Shown here piece by piece: positions 3,001 to 59,031 of a stretch of 64,000 bases of DNA. Source of the stretch: Apostichopus japonicus (Eukaryota > Echinodermata > Holothuroidea > Aspidochirotida > Stichopodidae); assembly GCF_037975245.1 (NCBI RefSeq), contig NC_092564.1, positions 9,707,984-9,771,983 on the forward strand. The letters are read 5' to 3'. Numbering within the stretch: the first letter of the stretch is position 1; each line of letters starts with the position of its first letter. A program made the translations under genes and the position numbers. The notes below the pieces were generated by a model. That model searched no databases. It was given only the letters and a program-made list of their open reading frames with translations, and was not told the origin of the DNA.

Positions 3001-6000
3001 ACAACTTTGGTGACGACAGGCACCACTTTGTATATGTGGTACGATCAACAACAGAGGTCACCCTTAAGGTGAGAACTTCTTTCTTTGATGGCTTGAATTT
3101 GAATGAATATAGGTTCATTACAGGAAAAGGTTACAAACTTAAATTAAAATATCAATTACAGATGCATTGTAGGAGAGTGATATTGATTATGAAAATTATT
3201 GTTAAGTTTGGGGAAAAACTTGTGTGTGGTTTGGATCAATTTCTTTTAGGAATTAAAAATACAAATCATAATTGAAAGAGCAACCATAAAATGTAAGTGG
3301 AAATGAATGATTAGACTAAGTGAATGATGCAAACCATCAAATATATATCCTTATGAAATGTTTTTTTTTTTTTGTGGTCATTTTGCAATGATAGAAATAA
3401 GTAAAAATCTGATACTGGAGAGATTTTATGTCCCTTTTTTCATTTTGCTGAAATTTCCATTCATCATACTCCTTTACTTGTATTTCCCTTTTCAATGGTT
3501 GTGTCAATATACCATCAGATATCATTGATAGTTATTCAACCATTCATTGGGTGGATGCGAAATTATGAGGGTTTTACTGCAAATATTGGGCTAATTTTTG
3601 ACACCAAAATGTGACATCATGAAAATGGCTGTAATTGAGATGCACTTTTCTTAGTTTTTCCCATGTTATTATGCCTTGACTTTGCATTTTCTATTCAAGT
3701 GAAAGCAGAGCTTCAATTACACTTGCAAATTTCAGTCACCCATGCATGTGGCAACTTTTCATGATTATAACCTAATCACACACTGCACAGTAGTGTACTA
3801 GGGATTGCAAATCCCAGAAACTCACTACTCATGCTGAGAATAGGTCTAATGGCATCTCAGAGGACAAATTCATTCAAAAATACATGTGAAAAAAAACTTG
3901 TTATTGGTTGTTAAACTGTACAAATTTTTTGGTGTCCTCAACATAACGTAAGTTAAATGGGCATTATTTCACTATCAACTGATAGTTTTGAATATCAAAA
4001 CATTTGTAACTGATCAAAACCCCACATACACTGATAGTAAACAGTTCTTTCACTGCTAGCAGTTCAATTCCTCTGTATCAGTCACAATTTGTGTGTGGTG
4101 TCCTCATTTCTAGCCTGCATAACATACATTAACTGTGAAAATCTATTTAAGGCTCATGGCAGGAATTCTCACAGAATATTCAACTCACTTAATATTTCAC
4201 CATGTTTGAAATAGAATTAAACAATTTCCATCATCCAATGAGTCTAAAACATGGTTTTAGAACATCTGTTAACGTATGTGATGGTGTCTCATTTTTTGGT
4301 GTCTTCATAACATACGTTAACAATATGCACTTTGAACATAAATTATTGAGAAGACTGAGAACTTCCATGCTAGGAAACACTTCATTTCCATGTAGTTCTA
4401 AGGTACTCTATCTAACTAGTTGATGAAATTTGTCATTGAGCCAGTGGCTAAGTTCTATAACTCCAAATTCCTGTTGTGTTGTTAATGTATGTTATGGTGT
4501 CCTAAATGATCAGCCTCATTAACTTACAATGGAATGTGATAAGAACTTCAATTTTTTTTGTGTCATAAGATATCATTTGACATTGCTCATATATATTCCC
4601 CTTCACTTTAATAAAGAAGGGGCTATGTTTATAGACAACTGTAGGACACCGAGTAACATACGTTAACATCATCACTTGTCCTTTTTATTTGCCTCAAATC
4701 CACCTTTCTTAATACTGTATTATCTTTTAACATTACTAATTGTGTTCGACATTCACCGGAGAACCAGAATCAGCACTCAAATAGATACCTTTGTGTAATT
4801 CATTTTTGAACATGCATGTCACACTTTAGTAACCCAGTATCAAATAATGACATAAATAAGAAATAAAACGAAATACCATAACATCATGTAACTATTCCTT
4901 GGAGTGAGTTTATTTACATGTTCAGTACCAAGCAAGTTTATTTATCCAGATCATTTTGGTTTTGTAAACCTTATCTTTGACTATTTCACAAATTGCTTTG
5001 TAAGCTGGAAATGAAGTATCAACTGCCTTTAATACATTATTATTATTATTATTATTATTATGATTATTATTATGATTATTATTATGATTATTATTATGAT
5101 TATTATTATGATTACTATTATGATTATTATTATTGTTATCATTCTAATAATGATTATTTTAATTTTATTTTTATTATGATTATTATTATTATTTTTGCAG
5201 GTTGATGAATATCCTATACAGAGAGCTACTATAGATTCAGCCGTATCGTTTACTCCTGGTAGACTGATTGTTGGGGCAGCCAGTAAGTGGAATATTTCAA
5301 GATGCCTTTGGCTATCCAAATAGAATACAAAGAGATGTCATCGTTTTAATTCTTTTGTTGTTATGCATTGTTTCTTTTATTTGTTTTTTTTATTGCCCCA
5401 TTTTTCAAAATTCATCATAGTGTATACATAATAATAAGAAGACTGATGTCAGAATAGCTGATATATTAACAACTACTTAAGCAGCAAATGTGACCTTTCA
5501 TTAGGGCCCCTCCCTGTAAAGGTCCGACATGTCAAATATTTATTCTCCTTTGATATGGTCTGGTCTGTAAATTTTAATTTACAAACCCAAGTGTTTCCCT
5601 GCTTGGACAAGTACCTGTGACTTAGTCCCCTAGTTTCGTGTTTAGACAAGTTTGTCTTTCCTACTTGAACAATTAGATGTTCTCTCAAATTTTTTGCTTG
5701 AAAGCCAAGTATTTCTGCTTAACAATTTTCAAGTATTTCTTGTATAGATAAGTTTTGCTTAGTTCTTTATAAAGGCAAGTATGTTGTACTAATGATATGG
5801 AGGACAAAACCTTTTGGTAAATCAACCATTTTATGGTTGTTTTTTCTTTTCTTTTCTTTTCTTTCAGTCAATGGAGGCCAGAATTTCCAGGGCTGTATAT
5901 CCAGGGTACATTTCAACAGCAGCTCTGTTAATATATCTCCCATAAAGCTCTATTTTGATGCAAATAAACCAAGTGAAATGAGAGGTCAAGGTATCATCAC

Positions 6001-9000
6001 ACAGTCACAGTGCCGTGTTCACAACATACCCCCGCCGTTATTGTCTAAAGAACCCCCTGTGTACTCCCCTACTGACCCCCCTCCTACAGAAACAGTGCCA
6101 GATGCAGGCTCAGTGCTGGCCCCTGGAGACAAGGCTACAATTGCAGGTAAGTCTGTTAAACAATCTTTTTCTTGGTTTCTTTTGCAACTGGTACTATACC
6201 CAATTAAATGGCTTACAAATACATTTTGAATTTGTTGTGTTTATATGTTATAGGTTAAAAACATATGGCTTAAAATGCCTTGTGATCTTAACCTGATTAA
6301 TTAGTTTTAAAAGAAATGAGAATGTGTCAAGCCTTTTTAAAATCTATTAATTGTTGTAAAATCAATGATGAAACTGGAAGGAAAGAGTGTATATGAAAAA
6401 GTAATCAGTGTTGATGGTAACATGAATAGATTGCAATTGTTTTAAGGTTGAGAACGACTCTCAAATTGCCATTTGAGTACATTCTTTCAGTAAGCACCCG
6501 TGCCCTCATTCTGCTCGAGCCCCCCTCCCCCCCCCCCACATACTCCACGACCAAAGCTTTGGCTAAGCTTATTTTGCTTTGCCATCCACTTCAAGAATTC
6601 TGATATATATGTTTCGAAAAAAAAAGTGAGATGCTTTTGAATTTTAACCGAGGATGCAAGGTTCATGGTTGCACCCTCTGTATTCATCTGGAATCTTACT
6701 GATAGCAGAGGCGGACCAGACATAAATTGCTGCTGGCTCACTGATTTTAGTAGTCGGCACAGAGTCCTTGTAACAAGCAACACAATCGTCGTAGCGGCCG
6801 AAGCTAGCACCTTTGATTTGTGGCCAACAGGAAATTGACACGGTGAGGCATCTAAATGTTAAGTCACCTTGGACCTATCGGGACTGCCATTTCGGAGCCA
6901 GTAATTCAGTGGTCAACTCCGCCCAGAGTGACAGTAAAGTATTATGAGGCTGGAAAAAACCCAAGAACTCTGAATGGTAACACGTTGTTGGTCTGTGATA
7001 CTTCTTCAAAGTCTATGATTTCTAAGGAATACTTATTTCATTCATTTATTCGTGTATCTATTTAATTTTTTTTCTTTTCTGTTTCTTTCTACAGTTGTCA
7101 TCATTTTACTTCTATTGGCTTTCATTGTATTAGTATTCCTCATCACAACGTACATGCACAGACACAAAGGTAAGAGTATTTATTTTACAGGGGTTTTTTT
7201 TGGGGGGGGGGGGTTGCACCGTGATGAAATTTTGACACATCAATTTCATTTCGAACTGAATCACACAGAGTTAAACTTGACTTGTTTTGATCGTAATGTC
7301 CATTTCAAAATCTATCTATCAAATATAAACAAGCATGCTACTTTGTGGTACTGTCTAACTGTTTTCCTGTGTTTGTGTAAATTTCATATCTGAACACGTA
7401 CTTCTTAAAAGTAACCCCCACTTTTTCCAAAAGATTATTATGAAAGGATTGGCATGAACACAAAGTTGTTAGGTGTAAAACAGTGTATAATTAGATCAAC
7501 GTTATCTCTCTTTTGAAATAGATTAGAAAAACACTCCATATTTCATGATAGACTAGTGTGCAACCTTCTTTCACAAAACTTGTTTCTAGTTTGACGTGTG
7601 AATTTCTTTCTTTCAAATTTTTGATTACAAAACTTTTAATACCTACTACACACCCAACTCACCTAGTTCTTCCTCCATGCTATTAATTGAAATTTGAAAA
7701 TTCCCTATCTGCCTCTAGCCTTCCCCTCCCCCTCCCCCTCCCCCTCCCCTTCCTTTCTCCACCACATGTATGATTTCCTTTTTCACTTTTGAAGTGTATC
7801 TATATTGTAGCATGTAAAGGGTGTGTCCAATAGCATGATCTTTTAGTTGTACGTGTTTGTAATGGATTTGTCGTTTGTTTGTTTTTGGCTTCGCTTCAAA
7901 ATCTCCTCATATGGTTTCCCTACCCTCGCATCATCCCTCTTGATAAAAGAGAAAGGTGGCTTAACTATAGAATGGGCTACATTCCTGCTTGCTTTGAGGA
8001 AAAAAAGAGTCATGGCTTTATCACAGTTTTCATTATTTGGCTGTTTAGGAAACAGACCCCTCACAAAAGTAATGAAAATTAATTAAGAAAATGGAAAAAG
8101 TGCTGGCCAAACTTGAACTCTCCTAAAGGTTTGACCTAATTTATTGTCTATTTTTATTTTTTTATTTTTTACCTATTTACTCATCTGTGACTGTTTCTTG
8201 TGGTTTTTCACTCAATGCATTTGTATGTTCTATTTTTCCTCCCTCCGTAAAATTATCTCTACTCACAGGTGAACAGATGCCACCTCCTCCAAAGATAAGG
8301 TTTGTGATTTTAATTAGTAGTTGGTTAATTCAGAGATGGATTCAATTATAATCTGAAAAAAAAGCATTCTGCCTACAACTATAAAAAGCTTCACCTCTAC
8401 CAGAGAATGAAACAGAAAAACAAAAGAAAAATTATATCAATGAAAGAAAGATAGTACTAAACTTTAGAAAGCAAAATCATAATCTAATCATTAAACAAAA
8501 AAAGCAAAGAGGTGTTCAGCTGGAAATCCTTTTCCTTTTTGTTTATTTGACGACTTTAATGTTTTATCAAGAGAGAAGGTTTTCTGCCCTGACATGGTGA
8601 AGAATAACAAACAACCATGACAATCAGGCTGGTCGTTAATGGACCTTATCACTAAGCCATTCCAATTGTACAGTTTGGTGTTCCATATCTCTTCAGGAAA
8701 ACATCAAAATGACCATTGTTTCGTAAAGGTGTAAAGCCATCGAAATGGCATACATTATCCACTCCTAAACTGAACTTTCTAATCAATTATTACATATATA
8801 TAAATATATATATATATACATATACATTAAAATTGTAAACTGCCATTACCCAGTATCCTAGCTTTACAAAGTCGACCTTCACTTCACTCCTGCGCTTTCC
8901 ATTTTTCCATGGGTTGTATCTTCAAAGAAAGATCGTTCAGTTACACGCACCTTCAACCATAAAGACATTTCGCTTTCTGCTTTATTGTATCACAAACATA

Positions 9001-20271: not shown

Positions 20272-23200
20272 ATGAGTAAACAAAAGAAGGTGAGCCATTT
20301 TATGATTTCCTTTTCTTTGGTTTCTTTTTCTATTAATCCCAGTAGCATAAGATATTTCTGTCCTTAATTTATTAAAATTTATAATTTGTTTGATCTTTAC
20401 GTATAAAGCCTGTCAATGCTGCTATCCAGCTGTTTAACTTTGAAACACATTATAAATACATCACGTGACCATTTTACATAATTTACCGTTGACGATCATA
20501 ATTTCTCTTCAACAAACTGATTCTCTATTTCTATTCCTCTCTTTGAAATATTACCCAAAATTGTTTTCAACAATTCATATTTCTTGTACAATTCATATCA
20601 CTAAAGCGATATTGTTGACTTTGTTATTTGTTTGCCTTTTTCAATATTTGGTGAAGTTTACAAATGATGTTTTATGTGTTACTGAATAAATGGTGTTTTT
20701 ATGGCCTTTCAAAGCAAAAACAGGTAAAGAGTTACGGTGTAAGTAATAAGTCTTATATTAACTTGTTTATTAACAATACCTTCTATTGCCGATTAATGAT
20801 ATCATTGCAACCATTCTGGTTCTAGCTTTAAGTATAACACAATTTAAATGGAACTAATCAAATTTATTTCGAGAAGGCTTTCCTTTGATCACGTGATCTT
20901 TTGTATTGTTAGATCATTCTGTTAACAATTTAGACTTTTTTTTTCTGCTGCTGAATTGGAGTTTGATCTCAAAGAAATGACGTCATATCCTCCTAGGTTA
21001 AGACTACCGTCCATATAAGGGGACAAAAGCTTTCACTTTCAAAGGTCAACATTTTCAAATTTCAAAACGACTGAACTATTAAGACTAATTCTTACTGCAT
21101 TTAATTCAGCAAAGTGATTTCCTATTAAAGTGTCGCCATGAATATGGATTGGATTTTAGTTTTAATCATTCCCCCTTTTCTCCAACTTCACCTTAAGTCT
21201 GTGTTAAATTTCTTAAACTAAACTTTTGTATTTACATGTTCAGTTATTTGGCTGCAATTACCGTCACAAATCGTCACGACGAACCTCGGGAATGTAAATT
21301 TTTATGTTGCTTTAAGTTGTTTCTTCGAACATCAATACTTGACCGAGGACTATATATCAGTCTACTACAATACCTAGCTGCATAGGACGATAGCCTAAGT
21401 TGCATTTAAGATAACAGGCAACAGTTGGCTTTGCCATCGAGTGATTTTGGTCAATTACTTGGCGCCTGATTCCCCTCCCTCTCCCTTTTGCGCGAAGAAA
21501 TATCTTATGGTAACATATTACTATACTATACTATACTACTGTACTATAAGTTGAATAATATAACGGTTTGATATATCTAGTGAACTATACGTACGAATGC
21601 ATACTGCTTGAAAGTCGGAAATTATCATAGTGTGTGGGTGTACATCCACCCCCCCCCCCGCCCCTTCCCCTTCCCTCTTTTTCAACCCCACAAAAACAAA
21701 GACAAAAGTAGTCATTTAGAACCGACCGTGCTTGTAGACTTAATGACCTAATTTATGTATGTATGCCTCAGAATACACCATGTCATGCCTTCTTTACAGC
21801 AAGGGGCGCATCTAGACCCCCCCCCATACACGGGAATCGGTTTCGAGGCTGCCACTCCCCTTTTCCATGATCACCAGTATTTGACGCAGTGCATTACATT
21901 ATGTCAATGACTCATGTAAATGTTTCTGTATTTACCCCTAAGATTAAATATGCTATAATGCCGATAGTTTCTGAAGGTATACAGTAAAAGACACTCCAAC
22001 TGCCCAAATTGTTCTCGCCCATGTATCGAAGGGGGTGGGGGGGGGGCGATTAATTTATACACTTAAATATCCCAGTTACTAAAGTGCCTTGAGACTGGCA
22101 GTCAAAAGTGGCTAATTTGTTTTTATTATTATTAGTGGTCGATCATAATTTTGGGAGATTACTGATATTATCTTTATGATTTCATTTAACGGATGCTGTA
22201 CTCTCTGTTGCATCCCCTCTTTTATATCCATTGGTTTACTTATACCAAATCCTTCCAAAATTCTGCTAGAAACTTCTTTCACAAAGAGACTTCTCAGACT
22301 CAGGAGTGGTAACTGGCGGTTGTACTATTTGTGTTGCTGTTTTTTTTCTTTACCCTTCTTGTACAATTCGAATTTTTGGTTTACAGTTTTCTAACAGATT
22401 ATTTTTATAGGCAATATCATCGATATTACTCTGATTTCGATGGATAATATAAAGGTAGCTTTAACAACATTCGTAAATTAAAACTCTTAAAGAAATTTCT
22501 GAAATATTTCATTTCCAGCTCATAACTTGCACAACTCTCAAGACTTGTTAGTCATTCGCTTGGTGATGTTATTGATCCCACTGTTGCCAGATACCTCATT
22601 ATCAACATTTTGAAATTCTATTTTACAACAGAACATTTTATTGACTCTCAGCTATGGATGAAGAAAATCTACAACAAAATTCAAGTTTTTCAATCTGTTA
22701 GCTTATTCCTCGGAATAATTATATTGACTGATGGTTTCTTGTTTTTTTTTCCCTTTCTCAACTAACAGTCAGGAGCACCCCGTGAATTAGCTCCCGAGGA
22801 GATAGAAGGTATGTAGTAATTAAATAAAATAATATCTCATACTTGGCTTGATCTCGCAGATATTCTGGAAGGGAAAGAAATACTCTACAAGTGTGAATAT
22901 TGCATGTTGTTGCTAGGCAACGCAATTGTAATCAATTTTACATATATATATGGCAGAATCACTAATATGCACACGCAATATTTTCAACTAGTTATTTCCA
23001 GTTAGTGCAGGGTATACTTGCAATAAATTATTACATACTTCCGCTGTTCTATTATTAGCCATAAATCACCCCTCACTCTTGAATTCTTTTGTGGGGCACC
23101 AATCATGTAGCTTTCCGTTCCGTCCCATGTTCGCTTCAATCAATTTCCTGGTGGCCAACTTGTCGCTCACCCGACGACGGATAAACTAACTTAATAATAG

Positions 23201-26200
23201 CCTATATTTACATCTAATTTACCTCCGAATAGCTGTTTAACGACACTTAAGGGATATTTGTTCGACAACAATTTTGGCACATAATGTAAGTGTGATATTT
23301 GTGGTATCCCTAGTTCTTATAAACCTACTGGTAGTTGTCAATCAGATAGAAGCAGTCTGAACTATAGTACCCTATAACAGGCATTACAATCTGTTACTTT
23401 AAATCATCATTTTGCTTCAATCGTTTTGAACACATTTACGGCAATTCTACAATAGATCCAAGGTCATTACAGGGAAGTCTAAGCTAAAACTCAAATCTCC
23501 TCGGGACTTCATCACTGCAATGTGATTATGACAAAGGCAAAAATCAGCATCTTTAAGGAATAGTTCAAAGGTTAACTTATGTTTCGCATTTAAACAGATA
23601 CTTTATTTTTGCCGATAGAAGGAACCATATCGGTTCAGCTAGCAATATGACTTGTCAATCCATGAAAACAAAACAAGAAGCTATTGAACAATTGTACATT
23701 TATCTTGTAAACTATTTAACCCTCAAGTTTCGGTACTAAATATAAACGTTACCTTGAAGATACTTCTAGGTCAGCGAAACCTTATGACGTCATCAGAATT
23801 AGATTTTGTAATTAGCTGTATAGGCCTATACATGAAATGACACAGATACATGAAACATGAAACATGGCACAAAATGAAAGCTAATTAAATAGCTTTAATT
23901 CATCATCTACAGAATACGCGATACGCGTTCTGTCTTCTTTAATTATCATATAGGGTAATGTGATTGCATATTTCACCTTTAACCTTTCAATTAGTAACGT
24001 ATGAAAACCAGCAATCGTTAACCGCAGCAAAACCAAAGTATGCCTGACACGTTCGGTTAGCTTGGCCGCGGATGATCCCACGGATACGCCATAGCCAAAT
24101 TAGTAGAAGGGAGACAGTTATGCGACGGCTGACCTGTAAAATGTTATGACTTTGATAAACGGATTAGAGGTATAGGGTGATTTCTAGATTGGTTACTTCC
24201 TACGTAACATGTAACAGAAGGGACGGGAGCAGGAGAAATTCCATCTTCATAATAAAATATAGTTATCGGAACTTATCGTTAACTTAGTGTTAAACAAATA
24301 GAAAGCGGTTTATAACAATGGCATGAATACGTTAATTAGTTATATGACTAATATTTTTTTTAAATAGGAGGAGAGGTATTGGTCAGTAACTTTACAGAAA
24401 TGCAGCATATGTCCCTGAAGGGGTGGGTGAGGTAGGGTGTGCTAGGGTTGGGAGGGTGGGTGGGTGTGCCGGTGGGTGTTGGGGTGGGTAGGGTGGGTGT
24501 TGGGGTGGGTGGGGTAGGGTGGGGTAGGGTGGGTGGTTTAGGAAGAGAAGGGGGAATGGAGAGTGGAGGAATTCATGCATAATTCGTGATACTGGAAATC
24601 AGTTACAGGAATCTTAAAAAGTACACATACCATTATTTCCTTTCTTGAATCTATGTGAACAGTTGTTAAAGTCGATGTTCAGTTAAAGTTCGTTTTTATT
24701 TGTAGCCCTACAGAGAATTAGTAATTTTTTCCCAAATAGTTGAAAGAAATCGAATATGGTCGGCGTATAAGCTGCCGTTTTCTTAATTTTTTTTTAATTT
24801 AAAATTCGATAAATACAAATTTACATTTAATTGATCATTCTCCATGTCTGTAAATCACAAGCGTTACTTCCTATGTGAAGGTATATTTATTTTAAGAAAT
24901 CGTTGGAATTTGATGATGCTGGAATGTGGGCCCCAATATAGTTGTTTTAGAAGCTGATATTATCCGAAAGATTTCATAACTATACTTATAGGCCTTTATG
25001 TAACCTTTCTATACACTGTGAAGTTTTATGTTTAATGGAACACGCATACCGCACCCCCCCCCTCCCCCTCCCCACCACGGGCTGCAGTACATGCTCTGTA
25101 TAGAGGTAATAAGTGCAGCAACTTTGTTGCGTACACATTTTCGAATCTCGCATCAAGTGTGACTTAGAACATGTCAATGCGCATGAAATATATTACCCTG
25201 AATGATATTGTGTAACAAACCCATTTTATATCAATCGAATCAGACAAGGTTCCGTGTAAACGGACGACATTTAAAGTACCGTGCGTTTATACAAGACCAC
25301 AGTGGTCTCGAATGACATGGACAATCCTCTAGGCTATACAGGTATTGACACTGTTCATATTCTTGTGTGTTTTTTTTCCATCCAGAATACAGAGAGAATT
25401 TCCTTCTCTTTGACACCAAGGGTGACAACAAGGTCCAGGGAAATATCATTGGTAACATTATCAGGGCCCTGGGATTCAACCCAACAGAGGCTCTGGTAAA
25501 GAGTGTAGCAGGAGAGAAACTAGATGAGTGTAAGTACATATATCGGGACGTCATCGGGATGAACACAAGGCATTCGATGACGTCACTGAGATCTCCCGCC
25601 CTCACCCTCGCCCACCCCCTCCCCCGTCCCCAATCGGGTCATTGGCAGAAGGTTAGGCCAATCATGGCAGTAATTTAACCCGTTTGAGGTCTTGATTTTC
25701 CTTCAATACAATATTAAAATGAGAATACATCTTAATGTGTTCCATAATTCCCCGGCACCTAATTGATCGCAGTACCCAGGACTATAGCCCATTCCCTGAT
25801 TACTGACCCCACCCTTCCCCCACCCCTCCCCTTCTACGTCAGAGCTGCCCATTTTTCGAATAATTTATGACGGCTTACATTGTTATTGTGCATTGCTTCC
25901 TATATTGTGAGAAATGCTGCGCGTCATATATGTGTTTGCGAAATTAACTCCCTACACGATCTATTGTAAGTATATTCATGGTTTGTTCCATGCTGAACTA
26001 TATGGAATTTACTGTATCGTAGTGAAATCATATATAGCATTATTAATATTATTATGAATTTAAGTTAAACTTTTCTTACTTTCCCGTTTGTCAATTCTAT
26101 ACGGCCTTTTAGCTCATTCATGTTATCTGTCTTGAATCTCCTCAGTTGTCAGGGTCTCGTGGGAGGAGTTCTTCCCGATGCTTGAAACCTGTAGGATAGC

Positions 26201-26392
26201 CAAGAGAGAAGGCAAGGAAGGAACAGAGGATGATTTCTTTGAATGTTTCAAAGTTTTCGATAAAGAGGATAACGGTCAAGTAAATGCTGGTGAAATGACC
26301 CACGTACTCTGTACGCTAGGTAAGAACAAAACAATACGGAGAAATGCATTGTTAGGACATATATACTGCATAGTAAGTAAGCATAATATATA

Positions 26393-26485
<93 letters not shown>

Positions 26486-29400
26486 ATAGAATGGTGGTCA
26501 ATATTCACAAAGAGTGCTCTATGCCAAGGCAGAGCTAAAGATATACTAATTCTACTAAAGAAACCATTAATTGATTGGCGGGAGGAGCCTAAAGTTCAAG
26601 CAGCAGTGAGATATGTGACTTTTTTTTTTTAGTGTAAAGGCAAATAACACAGCTAACTCAGCAATTTCCTTATCTTCTGCAGGTGCAAACCATATCATAA
26701 ATTCTAGTATTTTAATGTTTTTCAAGAAAATGGCACTTGCTAACTACATTTTTACAACGAAAGGGTACTCTTTTTTTTTAATTACGTATGTTTTTTAATT
26801 TTCCAACAACGAGGAACTTATTATATTTACGGGAGACCTAAAACTGTAAGGCCAAATCACTTACTATCGAAACGAATTCGAGCATTTTCTGTATATATCT
26901 TTTTTCGACATTACAGCTAAATTATTACTTATATTTTTGACGTCATTGCCAATACTATTTCTGTGTAAATTTGACATCATAACAGCCCATCCCTTCACGG
27001 TGAGAGGCGATTCGAAAATTGCAGTACCCTGGACAGGCGCGTAGCGAGGAATTTGCCAAGGGAGGGGCGAACCTGTAGGCAATTTATCAGAGCCGTAGAT
27101 TCGGCATTGGAAACTATCTAAACGTAGCGCCATCATAAGTTGGCGGGAAGCGTACATGAAAATTTTGGCCGTAAATGCTACCCAGATCGCTGTAAATGGC
27201 ACTTCCCAGGCCTTGCAGGTTGCATCTAAGCATTTTCAATTTGAAATTACTAGCGATATCATAGAAAAGTACCAAAAAAGTATGCTCAAGGAAGGGGGCA
27301 GTTGCACCCTTCGCCCCCTGGCTACGCGCCTGGCCCTGGAATACATCTAAGCTAAAGGGATATATATATTAATTAAAATAGTTTACTTGCACAGGTTTAT
27401 GGGGCAAAAAAAAATGAATATGACGAAATCTTGTTTTTGTATTTTACAGCTGAAAGACTGCGAGAGGATGAGCTTGAACCCCTCATATCTAAACACATAG
27501 ATCCCCATGGAAACCTGAAGTATGAAGGTAAGATCAAAACTAATATTTCACTATTTTTTCAAAATTTAAAAAATATATTACATTTTTGTAACAATACAAA
27601 GGGTTATCAAACCATATATTCTTGTTCATTTTGGGTACTATTTATTAAACGGTAAACAAACTAAATTTTCACAGAGATGGATATCCTTAAAACCTTAACA
27701 TTATTGCAAGGATTTTAATTTTGTCGATTAATGAAGTGTGGATCTAAGAAAAAGGTAATGTGTTTTAAATGAAAGGTAAACATACATTACACCACGTATT
27801 ATTAAAGCATAGGACCATGAGAGTTAATTTTATCGAAAGCTAGATTTAATGATTTTAAATCAACAAAACAGGTTACAAGAAACATTAATAATATCGTCAA
27901 TAGTTGAATAAAGTTTTTCCTCAGATTACGAACTATTTGAACAACGCTGTCTGTTATAATGATATATATATGACCAAAAGGTAAAACAAAAAGTCATTGA
28001 CCTCAAACGATGACGAAAACTCAATCCCTTCTTTATTTTCACCCCAAGTTTTTGTCTATAATTTCCTTACCTTTCTTAAGCTTTTCTTTTCCCGGCTTCA
28101 TAACCTGCACACACCCTTTAATTCTTGAAAGGCTATAAGATGCAAATGTAATGGTTTTCGAAAATATTGGCTTTTATGATTTATCGGTAAATTGAATAAC
28201 AATAGTCCAAATTATCTAGATTTCGTGAAGATATGCGAAAGTGAAGTGTTTTGTTAAATTTCGATGTTGCTTTATCGATCGAAAATGACTTTTGATTTGT
28301 TAATGGAACTGATCAATAGTAGGAATAAAAGCTTTAAATTTATTATCTAATAGAAACGTGTATTACAATTGCAATATTTGAATCCTTCCAAATACCAATG
28401 CTTTTAACCTTCTCCACACCTACCTCCTAATACCTCTTTCCTTTAAAAAATGGAAGAAATTGTTGTGTACCTACCCTTGCATGCTGGGCATCGGGGTATA
28501 AAAAACTCCCAGCATGAATTTGAAGAGAGACAATTTGTTGTGATAAAATCAAATTTAAGGTTGGAGACTGGGGAGAGGGATGGGTGAGGACGGGACGGGA
28601 CGGGGAATAGGTGGGGGGGGGGGTGCGATGCGGGTAACTCATGTAAGATGATTATTGAACTGACAGTATCAGATTCAGTGTTTTGAACATTGAAATTTTG
28701 TGAAGTGATAGAAACAATTTTGAATATTGGCGTTTCGAACTTTATAATATACGTAGTTGCTTTCTGAGGACTAATTTGTATTCGAGATAATGACAAGGTC
28801 TAAACTGTTTTACACAATATGACTGAGACTTTGGAAAATTTGCTTTTGACTCTATTCTGGTAATCGGGGGCAAAGGGGGGAAAAGGGGTGGAAAAATGGT
28901 TTAAAAAAAATTGTCAATCTAGATAGTCAGGTTGTTTTCTCTGTTGTTTGTCGAAGAAAGATAAAACTTACCTTGCAAATAGTTTGAACTATAAGCGTAA
29001 ATTTTCCTATTACTAATTTATCTTTTTACAACTTATTGTTTTCACATATTGTAAGTACCTCTCTACTATGTCAGTTCCTTACTAATTTACTCCTTACCAA
29101 TTTATTTTGTTATCTATTTGATTTAATATGGTGTCACTTATTACATACAGTAGACCGCCCATATGACTTAATTTTTATTTATTGATTTCAATTAACATCA
29201 GTGGCCTAGTTGTGAGGTGAGGAAGCACAATGACATCTTGGGGTCATAGGTCGATGATAAAAATTTAGCGGAATATTCCGGTATTTGAAATCGCTTATCT
29301 AAATAACTGGTATTTTATTGCTGAATCTATAGTTCAAAACATTTTATTCGCAATAACATTTCTACCAAAAATATAAAAAATAAAATAAAACTTTTGAAAG

Positions 29401-32400
29401 AAGTGTTCTTAAGTGATGAGTTTCACCAATGAAAACAGGATAGATTCCATCATTTTAAGGACAAGGTATTCAGAAGGGGTTTCAACTAAGTCCTAGTATT
29501 ATCAGACACCGCAAAATACCTTTTACTACTGTGACCAAATTGTAGCTGAATTATATCAGAACTGGTGAATAAAATGGATGTTTTCAATTGAATCCCGTCA
29601 GGCTCACGTGTCTATAGGTCACTGATAGATTCTTTACCATAATTTTAATATTTCTGATCCTATGTGAAGTGATATTAATGCAAACCTTGCATGACATATT
29701 TTGTTTAGTTTTTATCCTTAAGCTTTTTTCCTTGCTTTTCTCTGGCATGGCATAAATGATTTCTTCCAACCTACCTCTTTCCTTCGTGTTTTCTCCCTCT
29801 TTGGTTAGACTTTATCAAACATATCACAACAGATCCATTGGACATGGAATAGATGGCGGCAGGCAGGTTTAGCGGCGACACTCTCCAGGATACTATCTTG
29901 CAGTGCCCACTCCAGACTGCGTCTCCGAGTACTGTCATGTATTGTTCGTCTACTGTGGACAAACGTCTGAGTAGTACAGTTTTATACAATCTTAGGGATA
30001 CAACATTAACACGGGTCTCCCGTATCATATTAAGATCATATTGGTATCGTAAACACATTGCCGAATCAAATAACTATTGTGGAAGGATTTCTTTTAGAAA
30101 CTTTTGAATTATGAAAAAATCTGAGAAGTACATTACACTTCACACCTGTAATAAGATCTGTCTTTTTCTATTATTGATGACGTCATCTTTTTAAACTGCT
30201 TTTATTTTTTATGAATATTTAGATATTCACGTAGCTGTGGCGAAGAATTAATTTATACTTTTGCATGAGCTCATGATATGACATGTACCCGAAAGGCAAT
30301 CTATAGTATTCTTCAAACAAAAAATACGAATAATCAGTGCAGCAAAACCATCAATCAGCTGTTGAATGTAACTTTGGTGTAAGGAGGACCAATTTTGGTG
30401 ATCCTAGGGGCTCTTGAACCTGATACACTTATAAGCATACATATGTATGGACATTAATTCGAGATTTCATTTTGAATATGTACCTTCCGTTGAATATTCA
30501 TATTTTGCTCTGAAAACTACGCATCCGATTGGACATATCATGCGTGAACATTTACATGAACTGTGGTGCAAATCCTTATCGTCATACATGTTATCTCTTT
30601 ATTTTGAGTGACTGTTGGATACTGTTTACAACAAAATTAAGGAAAAGGAGAAAACTGAAAAACGTTTCATTTAGCTTTCAGTTGCATTATTTTACTAAAA
30701 CGTTATGGAAAGCAATACTACGTTATGTTATTCTTCATACAACAAATACTTGTTTAAAGTGTATTATAGTAAACTGAGAGAAAAAGTTTACCTTTTGATG
30801 TGAGCGTGTTTGTGTGATTGTGTGTGTGAGTGTGTGAAAATAGAAGAAGAATATTGAAACAAATATCATCGTCACTATGGCAACCGAAAACAAAGTCGAG
30901 ACCGCAATAATACAGTTGGTTGACTTGGAAAATTGGTTACTTCTTAGATATGTCCTACGTATTGTTACAGTGAAGTAAAATTTACACGAAACTTTCTGAT
31001 GAAATTATCTTTAGTTTTTTCCTTTGTCTTGAACCTGAGTTTTCTCATGGATGTCCTTTCATCCGCTTTTCTAAATAATACATTTTGGTTAGGTTTGTGA
31101 ACTAAAACATTCACATAACATTGTAAGGAGGGGAGGGGGGGGGGGAGTGCGTAGGGTTAATTACGCAATACTGTGGTTGTGTAGTCATGGTTACATGGTT
31201 ATCATAAGCAAACGCAATGCTATCGTTATATGATAATTACATGTGCGTACAGGTAAAAACCTTGATTACCTGGAACTTCTTTTTTTTTTTGGATTCCGGA
31301 TTAATGGTTATCTGACTATTCATTCTTTTACAAATAGTAATTTATTTAGATTTAATTAACATAAATTTGATTAAAACTCGTGTACAACGATCTAGCTAAA
31401 CATAATATGTCAAACAACAGAATAATTACTAAAGCAGTTAACAGGTCTGTATTAACTTTATGAAACACGTTGTGTAATGGTGCAATCATATTAAAGCTAG
31501 ATGCAACGTCGCATAATAAACTAGATTATTTGATTACTATTAATTTTTTAAGGGGGGTGGGGGGGGGTTGTATCCAGATAACTTTCGCCCCCTATGTGAC
31601 GGTCTTATATGTGAAGGTGTATCACATAGTGTATGCGGTTACATAGCTGGACATGGCTTGTAAAACAAAGGCCTAGATAAAATCAATTCGTAGCACAGAC
31701 AAGAACATATCCTACAATCTTTTCAACCTGGAACTAAGAGAAATTCAATAAATTATGTCTTATACATGATTTGTATACAATAAAAAAAATGGAGGGATTG
31801 CTCCTCCTTACCATGCCAATCTCGAATCCTTCAAAATTCCTTTAGAAGTATGCTTTGCTATAAGGTCCTTATTTAGAATAAACTTTGGGACACAAATTAG
31901 TCCATCCGTGAACGTTTTGAATACCGGTATACACGTTTAAGTGAGATTACAAAAATAAAAATATGCCAATTGAATATCCATCATCCCCCTTGCAGCGTAT
32001 ACGGATGATAATTCTAGCAATGACGTAATCGGAATTTCCCTATGTGAAAAGTAAAATGGTTTGGCATTGGCCATAATTGAAGGACGGGACACACCAAACC
32101 ATCATCATCGCACTATATAATATATGTGACAGATCAACATACCTGCAAAAAATGCTTCCAAAAACATCCATGTTTCAAGGTTTCAGGATTGTATATATAA
32201 GTAATATCAGAGGCATACTGTCACGTAACTGGCTAATCCTTTGTCTATATATTAATTACATACACACATATCATTATCACATATATAGGTTAACCATGTA
32301 GGTCAAGTGTGCTTCTCTTTCAATTCCAAAAATAAATACAGAATGTTAATTAAATACGTAAGTAACGCTTCTATATTTTATTCCCAAAAAATAATAAATA

Positions 32401-34081
32401 AAATAGGAAACTCTTTCTTACGAAGAACCATGTTAAGTTACTATCTTTCAAAATACCCTCTGGCAACAAAACATAATCCAGTAGTTGTTCTTAATTGACT
32501 GTAGCACAATAGGCAAGAAGTTTTTAAGCAAGCCTTTATCTAAAATACAACTTTTTAAGACGGTATTTTAATTTCGCTAAATACCTACACATGCAACACT
32601 TAATGAAAGATTCGGAAACTGACCCATGCACTTTAAAGGTACTGCTACCTTTATAATTGAATGTGGTGAGCAGTTTGGCTGATATGGATATCTGGTTTAT
32701 ATTTGCTAAGTTTGACTGATAACATGACAGAGGGAAGGCGGGGAGGGGAAGGAGGGAGGGGCTAGAGGACAAAATAACTGTTTCATAGGGGCTCACAACC
32801 TCCCGTCATCATGCAATTTCTGGTTACGGCAATGTAAGACGTTGGACGTAAATTTTCAAGTGTTAAATCAATTGTGACGACATCGCCACGATTTCACCAA
32901 CCACGAAGGAGAGAGCAAAGGGGACTCCAGACTGAGAGGAATATCGGAGGCAGAGTTGGCTTTGGAATTGAGTTTTAGTTTGGTCCATGACCATTTTTTG
33001 AATAAGCTGTTTATGGTACGGTTTGTAATCCTCATTATTTGTGTAAGATTTGTTTCACTTTTTGGTTCGTTAGATGTAAAACTTATAGAAAAGGTAGGTT
33101 TATGATATATCATTACTTATGAATAATTCATGAAACATTATTGCACTAATTAATTTCATTTTAAAAATTTGAAAAGAACAAAGAAATTTGACGTCAGGAC
33201 CTCATTGTCTCGAATCTCGTTATACTTCTTTGCTATTTTTAATGTTTTTAAATGATTATTCCCCTAGTCAGTTTTCCATTGTTCTTCTACGTGTTTATAT
33301 TTGTTGATTATGTAGTGTCAACGATGTGACTCTGCAAACAATTCTAAAACGAAAATGAAAAGAAGAATAAAAATGAAATGTTCGCGTATCTATAGCACTA
33401 TAACGAACGAAATTATTTTACGATGGTTCAAAGTATTTTAGATCCTTCCATGCGCTTTTTATTTACTACGTAATTCAGTGGACACGAGGCTTTGAAAATA
33501 ATCCAAATGTTTTTTATTTTTTATAGTTACAAAATTCCAATGTTTCGTTCGTCAGTTTGCCCCACCCTCACCCCCACCCCAAAGGTCTTCATCGTGGTGA
33601 AGCTGCATTTTGCGTTGAGTTGTAACTTAATTGTAAGTTTCACTAAGCCACGTTTTACATTTCAGTTGATACCATTCAATTAAACTAACAGAGCGTTGCG
33701 GATGTTATCACGTGATTACTTCTAACCAACGAGTTATAACACATTTAGTCGAATGCAGATACTTTTGTGTCCCACAAATTGACTCTAATATTTTTCTTTT
33801 TTTCGTGTTGGAATATTTTTGACATTTTATGCCTAATTTGATCATTCCTGTCTTGATTTTGTGGTAGAAAATACATTAAATTGATTGTGTCTTCATGTAT
33901 CATTATCTTACATTCGAGGGCAAAGAATGGTATGACACGCTTGCGGCAAACTAGTCAATGCAAAATGTAGCTTTACGAAACATTTTTGAAAAATTGTAAC
34001 GTTTTTTTCTTTCTGTTTCTCTCTCTTTTTTTAACAGAATTCATTGAGCACATGATGTCCGACCCTCTCGAAAACATCTAA
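20272..34081 (+). CDS. MYL (essential light chain; Mlc1-like): Myosin essential light chain (alkali light chain), complete, alternative last exons
   Basis: Exons: 20272-20289 (MSKQKK), 22769-22808, 25386-25529, 26146-26319, 27450-27527, then 34038-34081 (stop TAA) or alternatively 29809-29852 (stop TAG). Either form gives 498 nt, 165 residues. The product is a calmodulin-superfamily light chain that stabilises the myosin lever arm. Family hallmarks are FLLFDTKGDNKV (EF-hand 1, residues about 25-36), IIRALGFNPTEALV, EEFFPML, FKVFDKEDNGQVNAGEM (EF-hand 3, loop residues 106-117, the best preserved) and HVLCTLG. EF-hands 1, 2 and 4 lack key calcium ligands, as usual in essential light chains. The N-terminus is short and without the Ala-Pro repeat of long vertebrate forms. 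The ATG at 20272 is the only start giving a phase-0 exon that joins SGAPREL. Calmodulin and troponin C are excluded by the degenerate loops and by LRALGxNPT. Confidence 0.92.
20290..22768 (+). other. Myosin light chain intron 1
   Basis: 2.5-kb first intron. The part from 20462 to 21020 contains a CArG box, a CRE and two CACGTG E-boxes (see separate entry). Further on are a (TACTA)n-like run near 21520-21545 and poly-C/poly-G tracts near 21648, 21816 and 22035. A CAAGGGGCGCATCTAGAC end near 21800 looks like a decayed hAT terminus. Confidence 0.6.
20462..21020. promoter_or_regulatory. Candidate muscle enhancer: E-boxes, CRE, perfect CArG box
   Basis: CCATATAAGG at 21011-21020 is a perfect CC(A/T)6GG serum-response-factor site. 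TGACGTCA (CRE/ATF palindrome) is at 20978-20985. CACGTG E-boxes are at 20462-20467 and 20890-20895, the latter inside the 12-bp palindrome GATCACGTGATC (20887-20898). SRF sites drive many contractile-protein genes, and this cluster sits 0.2-0.75 kb into intron 1 of a myosin light chain gene. Function is inferred from motif and position only. Confidence 0.5.
22809..25385 (+). other. Myosin light chain intron 2
   Basis: 2.6-kb intron, AT-rich. The main landmark is the G-rich minisatellite at 24419-24535. A CT/C run lies at about 25053-25075. No other gene is supported. Confidence 0.6.
24419..24535 (+). repeat. G-rich minisatellite, G-quadruplex prone
   Basis: Dense GGGTGGGT, GGGGTAGGGT and GGGTGTTGGGGTGGGTA units, more than fifteen runs of three or more G on the transcribed (non-template) strand within about 120 bp. 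Confidence 0.9.
26393..26482. repeat. (AT)n dinucleotide microsatellite
   Basis: Pure alternating AT for about 90 bp, self-complementary, within an intron of the myosin light chain gene. Confidence 0.97.
27034..27332. mobile_element. hAT-like MITE, 299 bp, with 8-bp target-site duplication
   Basis: Perfect 12-bp ends CAGGCGCGTAGC (27034-27045) and GCTACGCGCCTG (27321-27332). The similarity continues inward through G-rich sequence ending GGGGCGAA. Flanks ACCCTGGA (27026-27033) and GCCCTGGA (27333-27340) agree at 7 of 8 positions, an 8-bp duplication as in hAT elements. No coding capacity. Confidence 0.82.
27528..34037 (+). other. Myosin light chain last intron(s), 6.5 kb
   Basis: Contains alternative exon A (29809-29852). 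Otherwise AT-rich, with poly-G runs near 28613, 31136 and 31555, a (TG)n stretch near 30810-30835 and no other supported exon. Open frames in it are short and without family resemblance. Confidence 0.55.
29809..29852 (+). CDS. Myosin essential light chain, alternative terminal exon A
   Basis: The acceptor is ctttggttag. Joined in phase 1 after KYE it reads DFIKHITTDPLDME then TAG. It is exactly as long (44 nt to the stop) as exon B at 34038 and aligns with it without gaps (F, I, H and DPL shared). Downstream GCAG|gtttag at about 29866 could be a donor if the exon is included before exon B. Otherwise it is an alternative last exon with its own polyadenylation. Confidence 0.85.
34038..34081 (+). 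CDS. Myosin essential light chain, alternative terminal exon B
   Basis: Strong acceptor (long T/C tract then ttaacag). Joined after KYE it reads EFIEHMMSDPLENI then TAA. The ending EF-(I/V)-xHMMS is the usual C-terminus of essential light chains, so this is probably the default form. Confidence 0.9.
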
Positions 34082-36710
34082 ATCACCTTTTCTCCTATTA
34101 AGAAGAACACTGAAAAAACACTATTTAGGCAGCAACATCTCTAAGAAAGACAAAAACGTGGACCGTTTATCCAACTTAAGACAACTACGGATGTTTCCAA
34201 AAACCCTTTGTCTTATTGAATGCTATTACGTACATTCTTCTGTGGCGAAGTTTTAACTTTTAACGTTATCAAACGTCGTGCAAGAACGGAGGGATAAATT
34301 TCTTGGATATCAGGACAGACATTTTGGAGAAATATATTTTGTACGTTTTCATCATGATGTCAATTTTGTGTGTGTTTGATTATTATTAGGTAGAAAAGAA
34401 AATACGGTAGACTTGAAGTGCCACAAACAACCACTTTGGGCGAAAGTCCAATTTGGTAGTCGGATGGAAAAACTCAACATGTGATTTGATGAATTCCTTG
34501 TTACTCTTTTGTTTATTAATGTAATTATATGGGGTATGTTTACCAGACATTGCCACAACTCCCTGTCATTCAAAATATGTATTATTTGAAAAGAATTCAG
34601 AATACTTTGATCTGGAAGCTTATCCAATGTGATCAATCTCTTCCCATCTTGTAATGAATTTGCTAAATATGTTAGGCAGTCTTGTCATGTATGTTGAGTT
34701 CCATAGCTGAAATACATGTTTGATTTCGTTGCATTTAAACTGAATTACATAATACAATCTCTGTTTGATCACAGTCACTGCATTATTAGCATATTACAGT
34801 TGTATACCGCCACCACTACTCTCTCCGTGTAAATGGTAGACTTGTCCACAAGCTCATATTCCCTTCAGTGTGTATAACTGCTCTTTTCCCTTAAGTTTAT
34901 ATTACTCTAAAATACCAGTTGCTCTTATCTTCCCCCTTACTGTGTGATGTGGTGATAACACTGGAAGCTAGGCTTTCAGTTTATGTATTTATAATCAGAA
35001 ATGAAAGAAAATGAAAGAAAAAAACCAAAACAAATGTGGACATTTTGATATTTCTTTGATTTCTTGTTTTTATTTTACCTTCTGTCAATGGATACGTAGA
35101 AAAGATAATCTAATCAAAGATGCTTTGAACATTAAACAAAAGTGTAACCACTTTCTATCGTTCCTATCTACAAACCATAAGAAAGAAGACTGTTTCGATA
35201 TTTACATAAAATCAAGATTAGATAATCACAAACAAACAGAAGATATGTTATTTGGGACACATAACTTGACTCGCTTGTATAACCCTCACAGTAACTTCAT
35301 GTTATACAGCTTTTATCATAATAGTCCCAAGTGGTATCAGACAAGATAAGATCATAAACAACATTTACAGTAATATAGTTTATGTTTCCATTTAACCTAA
35401 TAAGTATACACAACCTCACAGTGTAAATGTAACAGTAGTTACAAACGACCAGACTTTAATCGTCTTTCAGCCTTTGCGGTCGAATCTACTAAAATGAAAA
35501 CGTCAGTCTCTTTAGATTTTACAAATCTTCATCAGCCATGTTTTGGTGCAGATCTTTTATTCAATAACCAGATAATTTTTTTCTTCAAGTTTTATAACTT
35601 GACAATATTTTTAGATGAAATAAACCAGTGCACTATGAGGAGCCTAATATGTAATCAACACTTATTTTAACAATTTCAAATACAATTTGAAGTTTACCAG
35701 TTTACCACAGTTACAGATAACTGTATTCAAAACGTACAATTTATGAATTAAATTTTTCCCATGCACTTGGAAAAGTTTTAATTAAAAATTTTTTTTCTTT
35801 TCAGATAATCACAAAATATACATATTTATTCAAAATAACTGCAACTTCATAATAATAAAAAATAACAATAATCATAATAAATTGCTATATACAGAGAAGG
35901 TAAGTTTGAAAGACAGATTTTCCTGTGTTAATATTTTCTATTTTGGTCTACATAGTATCAGCTTTGTTTATAGAGTTATAACGTTATAAATATAAAGATT
36001 TATCAATTTTAAAGCCTCACAAAATTGTTCAAGGTGTTGAAAGTTTAAATATTCAATATTTATCTCTAAAGTTTTACTGAATATAGAACCACAAATATCC
36101 TAATGTACATGTATGGAAATGAAGCAATGTTGTATCAAGGTGAGAGGTAAATAAGAGTGTAGATTAAAATACTGGTAAGATTATAAAGGAAGACAGAGAA
36201 AAGATGTTTATACTGGAATGATGAAGTAGAAGCACCTGTAAAGAAGATACTGGGAATAAAGAGATCTTGTCCATCAGTGAGAACAGTATCAAGGAAGGTT
36301 TATTATTAAATATGACATAATATACAGACAGAGATATCTATATGTAATATATATATATATAGTTATTCAATTTGGTAACAACCTTACTATTCACGGTTAC
36401 GTTACTTACTGAAAAGAAATTCTTAATGGTCATCGGTATATTGGACACAATGATGCTAACCAGACAGAAAATTATCAGTCATGCTCAAACTGAACTTGCC
36501 TCTGTTCTGAGAGTATTTTCTTTACAGACACAGTAAACTGTGTACTGTAACACTCTTGAATGTCTGGTAATGCTAAGGAAGGTCTCAAACTAACAGGAGC
36601 TACTTTTGACAAATTCTATGAATTGCTAGCCAAATAATAACCGGAGAGGGGCGGGGCGAGGGAAATTTTATGACCTTTGACACAAGAAAGATGAATAAAG
36701 GCAGCTCACT
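34082..36710. other. Convergent 3' regions of the myosin light chain and KIF28 genes
   Basis: Holds the 3' untranslated regions of both genes. AATAAA on the plus strand at 35619-35624 and on the minus strand (TTTATT) at 35556-35561 are candidate polyadenylation signals; others exist (36299, minus). A 112-codon plus frame (35011-35349) is AT-rich and unlike any family. Confidence 0.5.
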
Positions 36711-39700: not shown

Positions 39701-42258
39701 GAGATAAGTAGAGATGTTTACCTGTGACGTTGCAACTTTGTAATTGAAATATTTCCTGTGTCTAAACTCCAGTGATACACTTCCTCCCATCTTGTCTGTT
39801 TCATTATCAACTGTGTCAAGAAATACTTTGTATCGGCAGTGGACATCCTGAGAATCAACCAAGAAAAGGAGACGCTTCACTCAGCAATTTGAGAACCTAA
39901 TCCAAACCCTTTGCAAAGAAAAGTGTCAGTGAGACATTCTCTCCTCCAAGCTCATGACACATTACTTCTAAATATATCACTCAACATCACCGTAAATTAA
40001 AACTAAACCACACATAACTACTACATGCATCACTCAAAATGACATTGAATGCATCACCACACATAACTACTAAATGCATTACTCAACAACATCACATTAA
40101 ATGCATCACCACACACTACTTCCACATATATCACTATACATCACCCCCAATGAGTCACCTTACATTACTACTGAATGCATCACTCAACATCACTGTAAAT
40201 GCATCACCACACATAACTACTACATGTATCACTCAACAACATCACATTAAATGCATCACTCAACATCACCATAAATGCGTCGCCTTACATTACTACTGAA
40301 TACATCACTCAACATCACGGTATATACATCACCACACATAACTACTACATGCATCACTCAACAACATGACATTAAATGCATCACCACACATTATCTGAAA
40401 TGTGTCACCATATTTCACTATACTTAACACTTAACCTCCTCATCCGTATCATCTCTGCAAATCACCACCCATCATTCACACATCCTTAACATCAGATCAG
40501 ATTTGATTAGAAAATATATATCACATCCCTCCATTCCCTTCCACCCCCTTCCCTTACACCTAAATCATCACTGCAAGCTTGTCTCATTGTTCCTAATGAC
40601 TTCCCACTCACCTTGTATTTGTTCGGTATTCCTGTCGCACCAGGTATCTTTAATACAAAGTTCAGAGAACGACCAATCAAATCCTTCGGATCTTCTACAA
40701 AGATGTCGTCAGCCTCGCTGAGCTCCTTGCCTTTGTCATCACAAGGGACTAATTCAATATCAAGTAACCCCTGCTCCTGACCTTGGTAGTTATTTACCAA
40801 TGCAGACTCTTTGGTCTCAATCTAGATGGATGAAAGAGAAAAATCACTGTGACACATCATGAACGAGTAACAGCATTGGCAACCTCTTACAACTAAGTAA
40901 AGGAAACAACGTCAAAACCTAGTATCAGCTGTTGGCACGTTCAATGGCTCTGACACCCTTTAGTAGGACTTACGTTTGACAATACTATGCAAAATACCAA
41001 CACTGGCCTTCAATAACAAGTAAAGAAAAGGAAGGGTAAGAAATTCTAGGAAAAAACATTTCCATACTTGCATATTTTGATTAGATATTGCTTACCAGGT
41101 ATGCTAGACTTTGTAGGTAAACGTGAGCTGATCCAATCTGAACCTGGGTGTCGGGAGATTCTGTAAAGGGATCTTTCTCCTGATAGAGAAAAAGAAGGGA
41201 ATAAAACACAAGTTAGCATGACCATAATCTCTGTCTCATTACGCAGAGAGACTTTCTGTTGGTTATATTGCTGTAGTATTACTTAAAGTATGGTGTGAGC
41301 TAGAACATGTACAACACTGAGAATAAGTGTTTGCGATCTTTGAATAAGATCATGCTAGGATCGAAAGTCTTTCATGTGTTCACTTACATCAGGAAGTTGC
41401 CAGTCTTCACCTTCTTGGAAGTTCTGGTACATCTCCTGCATGAGGTACTTGCGTCTGGTGAACTTATCTTTGTCCCAGACGTACTCCAGCTCACATTCCA
41501 AGTTACGCACTCTCACACACACCTGTGGGGGAGAGAATTATTAACACTTCCATCTTGTCTCACTCGTAGAGATAAAGTTAAGGGCATGTAAAAAATGTAA
41601 TCCATGCACAACATTACGTTAGACTTTGCCTGTGAAGGGCTTGTTTGTGGTCAACATCATTCCTACAAAGAATGAGAGCAATTTTTACATTTTATATGAT
41701 TATTATTTTAAATAATCGTAACAGATTTTGAACAAAAAAGTAATATACCTTGTACAGATCAGGACTGGTAAATGACTGTCAGTATTTACAATATTTTTTT
41801 TAATTATATTTTTATTTTATCTTTTTATTATTATTATTATTTTGTTGTTGTTGATGGTTTGCCATTCAGTGCTCACACTGGATTACCTAGATGGTCAAAT
41901 CAAACATTGTGGAAGTAATTCAACTGTAATTATTGCAACTTTGTTGGTACTCCCTCAAAATCCTGACATCTTTGTCCATCCATCCAGAATTATACTTAAA
42001 GTAGATGAACAAAGAGGACATGTCTGGGGGCAATCCGAATGTATGCGGTAACCCTATCTGGAGTTTCATAGATTAAACAAACAAGTTGACACATTGAGAA
42101 TGGCCTTACCTCTGTACGTCCATGCTGAAGACCTCTGGCTCTAGCTGAGAGCATCACTATCTCAAACTTAACTTTCTTGTCTAGTTCCTCACTCATAGCA
42201 TTGGCTTCCTCCACGGATGGGATCATATCGATTAAGTCCTGCTGTACAAGTTTGTCAT
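36711..42258 (-). CDS. KIF28-like: exons 13-21, C-terminal region
   Basis: Residues 604-977. Includes [38 protein letters not shown] and [15 protein letters not shown], which resemble the KIF1-like linker after the FHA domain in kinesin-3 proteins, then a mixed region and a short heptad stretch [11 protein letters not shown]. Exon 21 (36711-36754) encodes [14 protein letters not shown] and TAA; this last exon rests on splice signal and frame only. No PH or PX domain is visible. Confidence 0.82.
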
Positions 42259-57500: not shown

Positions 57501-58569
57501 CGAACCAGCTAAACACGGTATAGGTACATGTTTATATCGATAAAGGAAACAGTTTTATATAATACGCCAAAATATTACAATCTTGCCCCTTTTCAAGGAA
57601 CAAACCATCCAATTCCACCTTGCTGCCACTGATTGTGATCATTTTAATACCGGTCAACACGTAAAAGCAAACTTGAAAGTGCGTCGAACTTTGTTACGAT
57701 GCTTATATGGAAAAGTGGGAGTGGCATTCCTTTAAACACAGCCCATTCAACTTCCGGGTAAGTTGTAGGTAGAAAAAAATAAGCAAAGAAAAGCGAAATA
57801 TTTACCCCTGTGATATTTCTGAGATGCATATACGTGCATTGCAAACAATAAAAAAATAAAAAAAATAGCCTGAAAATGTTACCTGATGAGAAAAGTCAGG
57901 CACACTCTCAGCCATTTCGTTTCTCGGAATAAAGTGCAAACATGAGGCTGAATTTGAAAATACTTTGGTCTTTCATTGAAAGTCACTTACGTATTTGTAA
58001 AAGATTGTTCGATAAACCCATTGCTTAAAAATTTATTGCAAATCGTATGCCTATTTAGTTCCTAAAGAAGTTCGTTGTTCAAACTGTGATACAATGATAT
58101 GTTTTTAAAAGTAATCCAAGATAAATTATCATTATAAATATTTAGTTATCTCTACGTGACAAAGAAACCATGAAACCCTTTTATCGATTACCTTACAACC
58201 TATAATTCTAAAGAAACCTTTGACCCTCAGTCGTTCGATACGAACTTTATCACATGCTCTCATATTGTACACAGCGGTGATACGGTTACTCCGAATAGCG
58301 TGTGTTACTCACCATATTACTGACACAGCCTACACAATCACCGCATAGTAATGCACATGTATTTGTAAAACATAGAACGCAGTACAGCAAAAGGGCGAAT
58401 CTGGTACCGTAGTGAAAATCACTCGTGAGGCTGGCGACAGAAGTGAATATCTGGCAAGCAGAAAAAATCGCTGTAACTGTAGAGTACCATAATATTGGTC
58501 AAACAATACCAAATATACTCAGTTTTCTTCGCCAAAAAGTCGTTCATTCGAACGAGAAATTTCTCCAAA
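54590..58569. other. Divergent intergenic region between KIF28 and CERS1
   Basis: Both promoters should lie here. No TATA-type element clearly precedes either start. It contains a poly-G run (56289-56305), a GGAAGG/GGAAAG-rich run (55450-55500) and AT-rich DNA. Short open frames on both strands at 57210-57516 overlap each other and match nothing I know. Confidence 0.5.
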
Positions 58570-58800: not shown

Positions 58801-59031
58801 GTGAGTATCAACCATGTAACTGTTACTAGGGCTTAGCATTGGCTATGTATTGTATTATAACCTAGGCTACATTGTAAATTTGTAGCATAGGCGTAGGCCT
58901 ACCTCAGTCAGAACTGAGTCAATTTGGTTTGTCAATGTCAGTACGGTTTTTCGTTAGGCTGGTTTTGCTAGACCTAGTAATATCGGCCTAGTCTACGCCT
59001 AATTTAGAATCCGTACCAATCGACCCAACTT

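Follow-up and report, generated by a model that had tools for sequence, protein, structure and literature searches.

Two coding exons of equal length, lying more than 4 kb apart and both in frame with the same upstream exon, could end one and the same gene in a 64,000 nt stretch of Apostichopus japonicus DNA (contig NC_092564.1, positions 9,707,984 to 9,771,983; hereafter the window, with positions counted from its first letter). Are these exons a duplicated pair that is kept for two alternative C-termini of a myosin essential light chain (ELC), how would the choice between them be made, and does the arrangement share its origin with the variable ELC tails of flies and vertebrates?

Gene model and identity of the product

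On the + strand, five shared coding exons join in frame to either of two terminal exons, denoted A and B. The coding parts are listed below, with splice-site scores in bits that, here and throughout, derive from approximate weights.

20272..20289, + strand: exon 1, coding part MSKQKK; open frame; donor GTGAGC of 11.5 bits, phase 0
22769..22808, + strand: exon 2, SGAPRELAPEEIE; acceptor of 6.8 bits, donor of 9.2 bits; phase 1 exit
25386..25529, + strand: exon 3, EF-hand 1 region; ELC match in the PDB search
26146..26319, + strand: exon 4, central and EF-hand 3 region; Pfam EF-hand pair
27450..27527, + strand: exon 5, the common upstream exon, ending ..NLKYE(g); donor GTAAGA (27528) of 10.5 bits, phase 1
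29809..29852, + strand: exon A, coding part, 14-residue tail DFIKHITTDPLDME and TAG stop; acceptor TAG of 10.3 bits
34038..34081, + strand: exon B, coding part, 14-residue tail EFIEHMMSDPLENI and TAA stop; acceptor of 12.5 bits

Both spliced frames are open from the ATG at 20272 to the stop. The two predicted products, of 165 aa each, have 151 residues in common and differ solely in the last 14. The first intron is in phase 0, and all the others are in phase 1. The coordinates of exons A and B, their entry in phase 1, their equal length and their translations, as given in an earlier note on this DNA, were all reproduced on this gene model.

The gene product is supported as a myosin II ELC, the identity that the same note had assigned to it. 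In a phmmer search of the PDB, among the 60 of 336 matches listed, the first 21 are all vertebrate ELC chains (1.1e-33 to 1.9e-29, the best of them at 1e-33 to 1e-32), and the best calmodulin (7.6e-26) comes behind these chains. The sole invertebrate ELC among these 60 matches, that of tarantula (3jbh, 1.2e-24), ranks below several calmodulins. The proximity of the product to vertebrate ELCs would be in keeping with a deuterostome. A Pfam EF-hand pair was detected above the cut-off and ends at residue 157. The query for both the PDB and the Pfam searches was approximate in that it was one residue off (L for F at position 68).

A tblastn search with the ELC exons revealed no significant further copy within the window. 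In this search, a stretch of intron 2 (24051-24113) matched part of exon 4 with an E-value of 0.82, and exon A itself was found only at an E-value of 1.9. Because exon A was outscored by this stretch, tblastn could overlook a copy as diverged as exon A. No Rfam family was matched at the gathering thresholds. Intron 2 also contains a G-rich tract of repeated GGTGGG/GGGTAGGG units (24420-24540), a possible G-quadruplex former, and intron 4 contains a long TA dinucleotide repeat (26390-26480), about 70 bases past exon 4.

Elsewhere in the window, two stretches of the + strand (898-1266 and 5723-7160) comprise an EGF-like and laminin-G-like part, with Pfam E-values of 4e-4 and 7e-3, both below the cut-off, then a part without a Pfam match and a hydrophobic helix. 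Together, they appear to represent the end of a neurexin-type gene. The − strand carries a kinesin-like exon at 40510-40821 (PDB 7wrg, E-value 1.2e-7; no Pfam match). An open frame on the + strand without a Pfam match (58483-58833) resembles, judged by eye, the start of a ceramide synthase.

Similarity, age and constraint of exons A and B

The acceptors of the two exons are among the strongest in the region. When the 332 AGs between positions 27560 and 34999 were ranked, exon B came first (12.5 bits) and exon A third (10.3 bits). The AG at 31996, which came second (10.9 bits), beats the acceptor of exon A in score, yet has no matching tail behind it.

At the nucleotide level, 22 of the 44 bases are identical between exons A and B, and these identities are distributed very unevenly over the codon positions, since first and second positions agree in 11 and 12 of the 15 codons, respectively, and third positions in none (23/30 for positions 1 and 2 combined versus 0/15; Fisher p = 5e-7). 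Six residues are identical in the two tails, and each of them is encoded by a different synonymous codon. Saturation of the silent sites combined with retention of the protein points to an old duplication with both copies under selection. To judge from the sequences, exons A and B go back to a terminal coding exon that was duplicated long ago, and each copy is constrained as protein. The in-phase frames, the similarity of the exons and the pattern of constraint lend support to the view put forward in the earlier note, that is, a duplicated alternative C-terminal exon.

The lack of any identity at third positions, together with the conservation of the protein, speaks against duplication in the assembly, against a copy of recent date and against a long-abandoned exon. 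It appears very unlikely that exon A is a disused relic, given that its frame is intact, its length exact and its acceptor strong, and that the constraint at the protein level is evident despite the saturated silent sites. The last possibility, that the likeness of A and B is due to chance or to duplication in the assembly, can hardly be entertained. Unlike a true assembly duplicate, the exons share a mere half of their bases, and chance was evaluated as follows. In intron 5, 10 AGs, including that of exon A, precede a phase 1 frame of exactly 14 codons plus stop. When scored against tail B with BLOSUM62, exon A reaches 36 and the runner-up among these 10 candidates −5. Under the splice and stop constraints, none of 10,000 dinucleotide shuffles of intron 5 (after removal of exon A with 20 acceptor bases and of the 20 bases at the intron's end) reached 36, with a maximum of 29, and 1 of 10,000 did so when the stop requirement was lifted. 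What speaks for chance is an unconstrained scan of both strands, comprising 57,656 open 14-mers, in which a reverse-strand match at 9103 had scores of 37 with tail B and 40 with tail A. In view of this match, it is the combination of place, phase, length and acceptor that makes the case for exon A.

A duplication of the flanking DNA was considered and rejected. The 3'UTRs that exons A and B are presumed to have match best at 19 of 23 bases (30235-30257 versus 34240-34262), a level not above chance (46 of 200 shuffles). The best match of the tracts upstream of the two exons was reached in 14 of 200 shuffles.

Predicted splicing and polyadenylation of exon A

The vicinity of exon A contains several predicted features that bear on how it might be used:

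29688..29693, + strand: TGCATG (RBFOX-type), 115 bases 5' of exon A; a second one lies downstream at 30262-30267
29709..29808, + strand: pyrimidine-rich tract, 75 percent C+T, PTB-like, with the TAG acceptor; by composition
29853..30790, + strand: predicted 3'UTR of exon A (end approximate), with a GC-rich start and no donor above 2.4 bits to 30299
30768..30838, + strand: predicted poly(A) site, AGTAAA at 30768 and GT-rich element at about 30798-30838; consensus match

Within the first 447 bases past stop A (to 30299), there is no donor of more than 2.4 bits. The donor nearest to the stop is CAG/GTTTAG at 29866, 14 bases past it; of the 3615 GTs that were scored across the window, 33 percent attain its 1.1 bits or more. 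Later donors score 4.0 bits (30367), 6.0 bits (30378) and 7.3 bits (30799). Being located 515 to 947 bases past stop A, these donors, if used, would leave the mRNA open to nonsense-mediated decay. The GC content of the 120 bases after stop A is 0.53, compared with 0.32-0.34 in the intron, a value that is matched by 0.8 percent of the intron windows.

A poly(A)-type signal with a GT-rich element, predicted by consensus, was found between stop A and exon B. Among the 205 hexamers of the top four kinds on the + strand, the AGTAAA at 30768 is the only one with such a GT-rich stretch behind it; it is likewise unique among all 474 hexamers of eleven kinds, and none of the 580 hexamers on the other strand has such a stretch. 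The element score is 26.3 after exon A versus 11.3 for the best site (34331) after exon B, which is presumed to be a real last exon. Because exon B lacks a comparable element, the GT-rich element is not a required mark of a true poly(A) site. Furthermore, AGTAAA is a variant signal, and the GT-rich stretch may be a simple repeat, with four such clusters on the + strand. The first AATAAA past stop A lies 1.66 kb away, at 31515, and is followed by an ordinary stretch.

The weakness of the donors that closely follow stop A, together with the AGTAAA and its GT-rich element, suggests that exon A is probably an alternative last exon. This would differ from the exon skipping of Mlc1 and MYL6, and it is this architecture that would be new. 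We prefer this reading, and its main rival is that exon A is a cassette (about 29809-29866) as in MYL6 and Mlc1, so that inclusion would yield tail A and turn exon B into 3'UTR, whereas skipping would yield tail B. The CAG/GT just 14 bases past stop A is near enough for such a transcript to escape nonsense-mediated decay. In addition, regulated exons often carry weak donors. Precedents are described for Mlc1, in which an exon is skipped or included (PMC4778870), and for MYL6, in which the mode is exon skipping (PMC8563012). However, the donor at 29866 is far below the range of 6.4-11.5 bits covered by the gene's own five donors, the GC-rich stretch extends beyond this donor, and the poly(A)-like site lies downstream of exon A. 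On balance, we regard a cassette as rather unlikely.

The explanation that we propose, with moderate confidence, is that the gene encodes two ELC isoforms, with exon A as an alternative last exon that has its own poly(A) site and that goes back to an old, constrained duplication. Splicing from the donor at 27528 to the acceptor at 29809 would give tail A, in transcripts for which a separate poly(A) site near 30790 would probably set the 3' end, and splicing from the same donor to 34038 would give tail B and the distal 3'UTR. The pair of tails would have arisen long ago, when the terminal coding exon was duplicated, after which both copies would have come under constraint as protein. The tail spans the terminal part of the last EF-hand together with its exit helix (the Pfam EF-hand pair extends to residue 157), and it is expected to provide the final helix of the C-terminal lobe. 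By homology, this helix of the ELC sits on the lever of the heavy chain near the converter. From this position, a switch between A and B would adjust myosin to the tissue or stage; we infer such an effect on myosin, like the tissue specificity of the tails and the use of exon A with its own poly(A) site.

The regulation of this choice might involve PTB and RBFOX proteins, to which the C+T tract and the pair of TGCATG motifs, both spotted post hoc, provide weak leads. A C+T content as high over 100 bases occurs at 0.5 percent of the window positions. TGCATG is found 18 times on the + strand, three of these in intron 5, and two or more occur in 0.7 percent of the windows of such a span. In other animals, skipping of the Mlc1 exon is described as altered in a fly PTB mutant (PMC4778870), and RBFOX2 is tabulated with inclusion of MYL6 exon 6 (PMC11380049).

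Relation to the ELC tails of flies and vertebrates

The parallel to Drosophila Mlc1 and vertebrate MYL6 that the earlier note had drawn holds with respect to the place, and the splicing mode likely differs. Like the gene analyzed here, MYL6 encodes ELC isoforms of equal length (LC17a/LC17b) that differ at the C-terminus only, starting at the corresponding aligned residue, and 5 of the 9 last residues are reported to differ (PMC5742693); the two tails were taken from PDB chains. In contrast to the 14-residue tails and probable alternative last exons of A. japonicus, MYL6 has 9-residue tails and a skipped exon 6. Mlc1 is likewise an ELC with two 14-residue tails, and its skipped exon is the tail-bearing one. 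One of the fly tails was taken from PDB 5w1a, and a provisional sequence was used for the other one, the Q tail. The two in-phase tail exons that follow the common exon 5 diverge at the point where the tails of MYL6 and Mlc1 do, the column of divergence being identical, with D/E in A. japonicus, A/E in MYL6 and Q/P in Mlc1 (with the provisional Q tail). Each of these residue pairs could share the first codon base, as required by phase 1, a compatibility that was judged from the residues in the case of fly and vertebrate.

The identical column and the phase 1 boundary here, with which the fly and vertebrate pairs are compatible, are what would be expected if the two-tail arrangement stemmed from the bilaterian ancestor and were shared with Mlc1 and MYL6 by descent. 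The saturated silent sites, and hence the old age of the pair, as well as the scallop ELC, which also has 14 residues past KYE, fit this scenario, and so does a comparison restricted to the first 9 columns, in which tail B is closer to the provisional fly Q tail (score of 30) than to tail A (28). However, over all 14 residues, tail A scores 36 with B, compared with 25 for the provisional fly Q tail, 23 for the scallop tail and 9 for the alternative fly tail. This alternative fly tail resembles neither A nor B (scores of 9 and 7, respectively, and 10 with the provisional Q tail), and the smooth-muscle tail of MYL6 has 0 of 9 residues in common with A. No A-type signature common to the fly or vertebrate tails was found in the 9-14 residues compared, and the splicing mode seems to be different. 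We therefore consider shared descent of the arrangement to be unlikely.

Whether ancestry or invention accounts for the similar place had been left open in the earlier note. The missing A-type signature leans weakly towards separate duplications at one intron position, a lean that 9-14 residues cannot turn into a decision. Tentatively, and with less than even confidence, we suggest that the duplication occurred independently at the intron position used in flies and vertebrates, and that the tail is chosen by the use of last exons and polyadenylation, which would be a third, mechanistically distinct solution at a single site of the myosin motor. Duplicated exons that diversify a muscle myosin gene are likewise kept in insect Mhc (PMC2257972). 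These differ in being internal, mutually exclusive clusters of the heavy chain gene, not terminal exons of a light chain gene. Protein scans of genome and viral contig collections for relatives yielded 65 + 10 pattern matches, none of which was confirmed by tblastn. In the literature covered, at the level of titles and openings of abstracts, no such exon pair is described; we do not claim that it is unpublished.

The functional difference between the vertebrate tails is disputed. The a and b tails are described as going with faster phasic or slower tonic muscle, respectively, and in vitro work cited in the same source found the tail to be without effect on speed (PMC5742693). Tails A and B, if used, would represent a natural pair for probing this LC17a/b difference. 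The split of the ELC paralogs has been placed in the vertebrate stem (PMC5167519), which, if true, would leave splice choice to replace gene copies elsewhere. The idea that ELC paralogs are exclusive to vertebrates was dropped, since at least 3 ELCs, only 51-62 percent identical, are reported for tarantula muscle (PMC2674065), and flies have Mlc-c in addition to Mlc1 (PMC4778870).

If exon A is used, convergence and deep ancestry could be distinguished with the genomes of echinoderms, hemichordates and amphioxus, and a different splicing mode would favor convergence. The terminal helix of the ELC would then vary at a single intron position in three distant lineages, and this C-terminal helix would be a favored tuning point of the motor.
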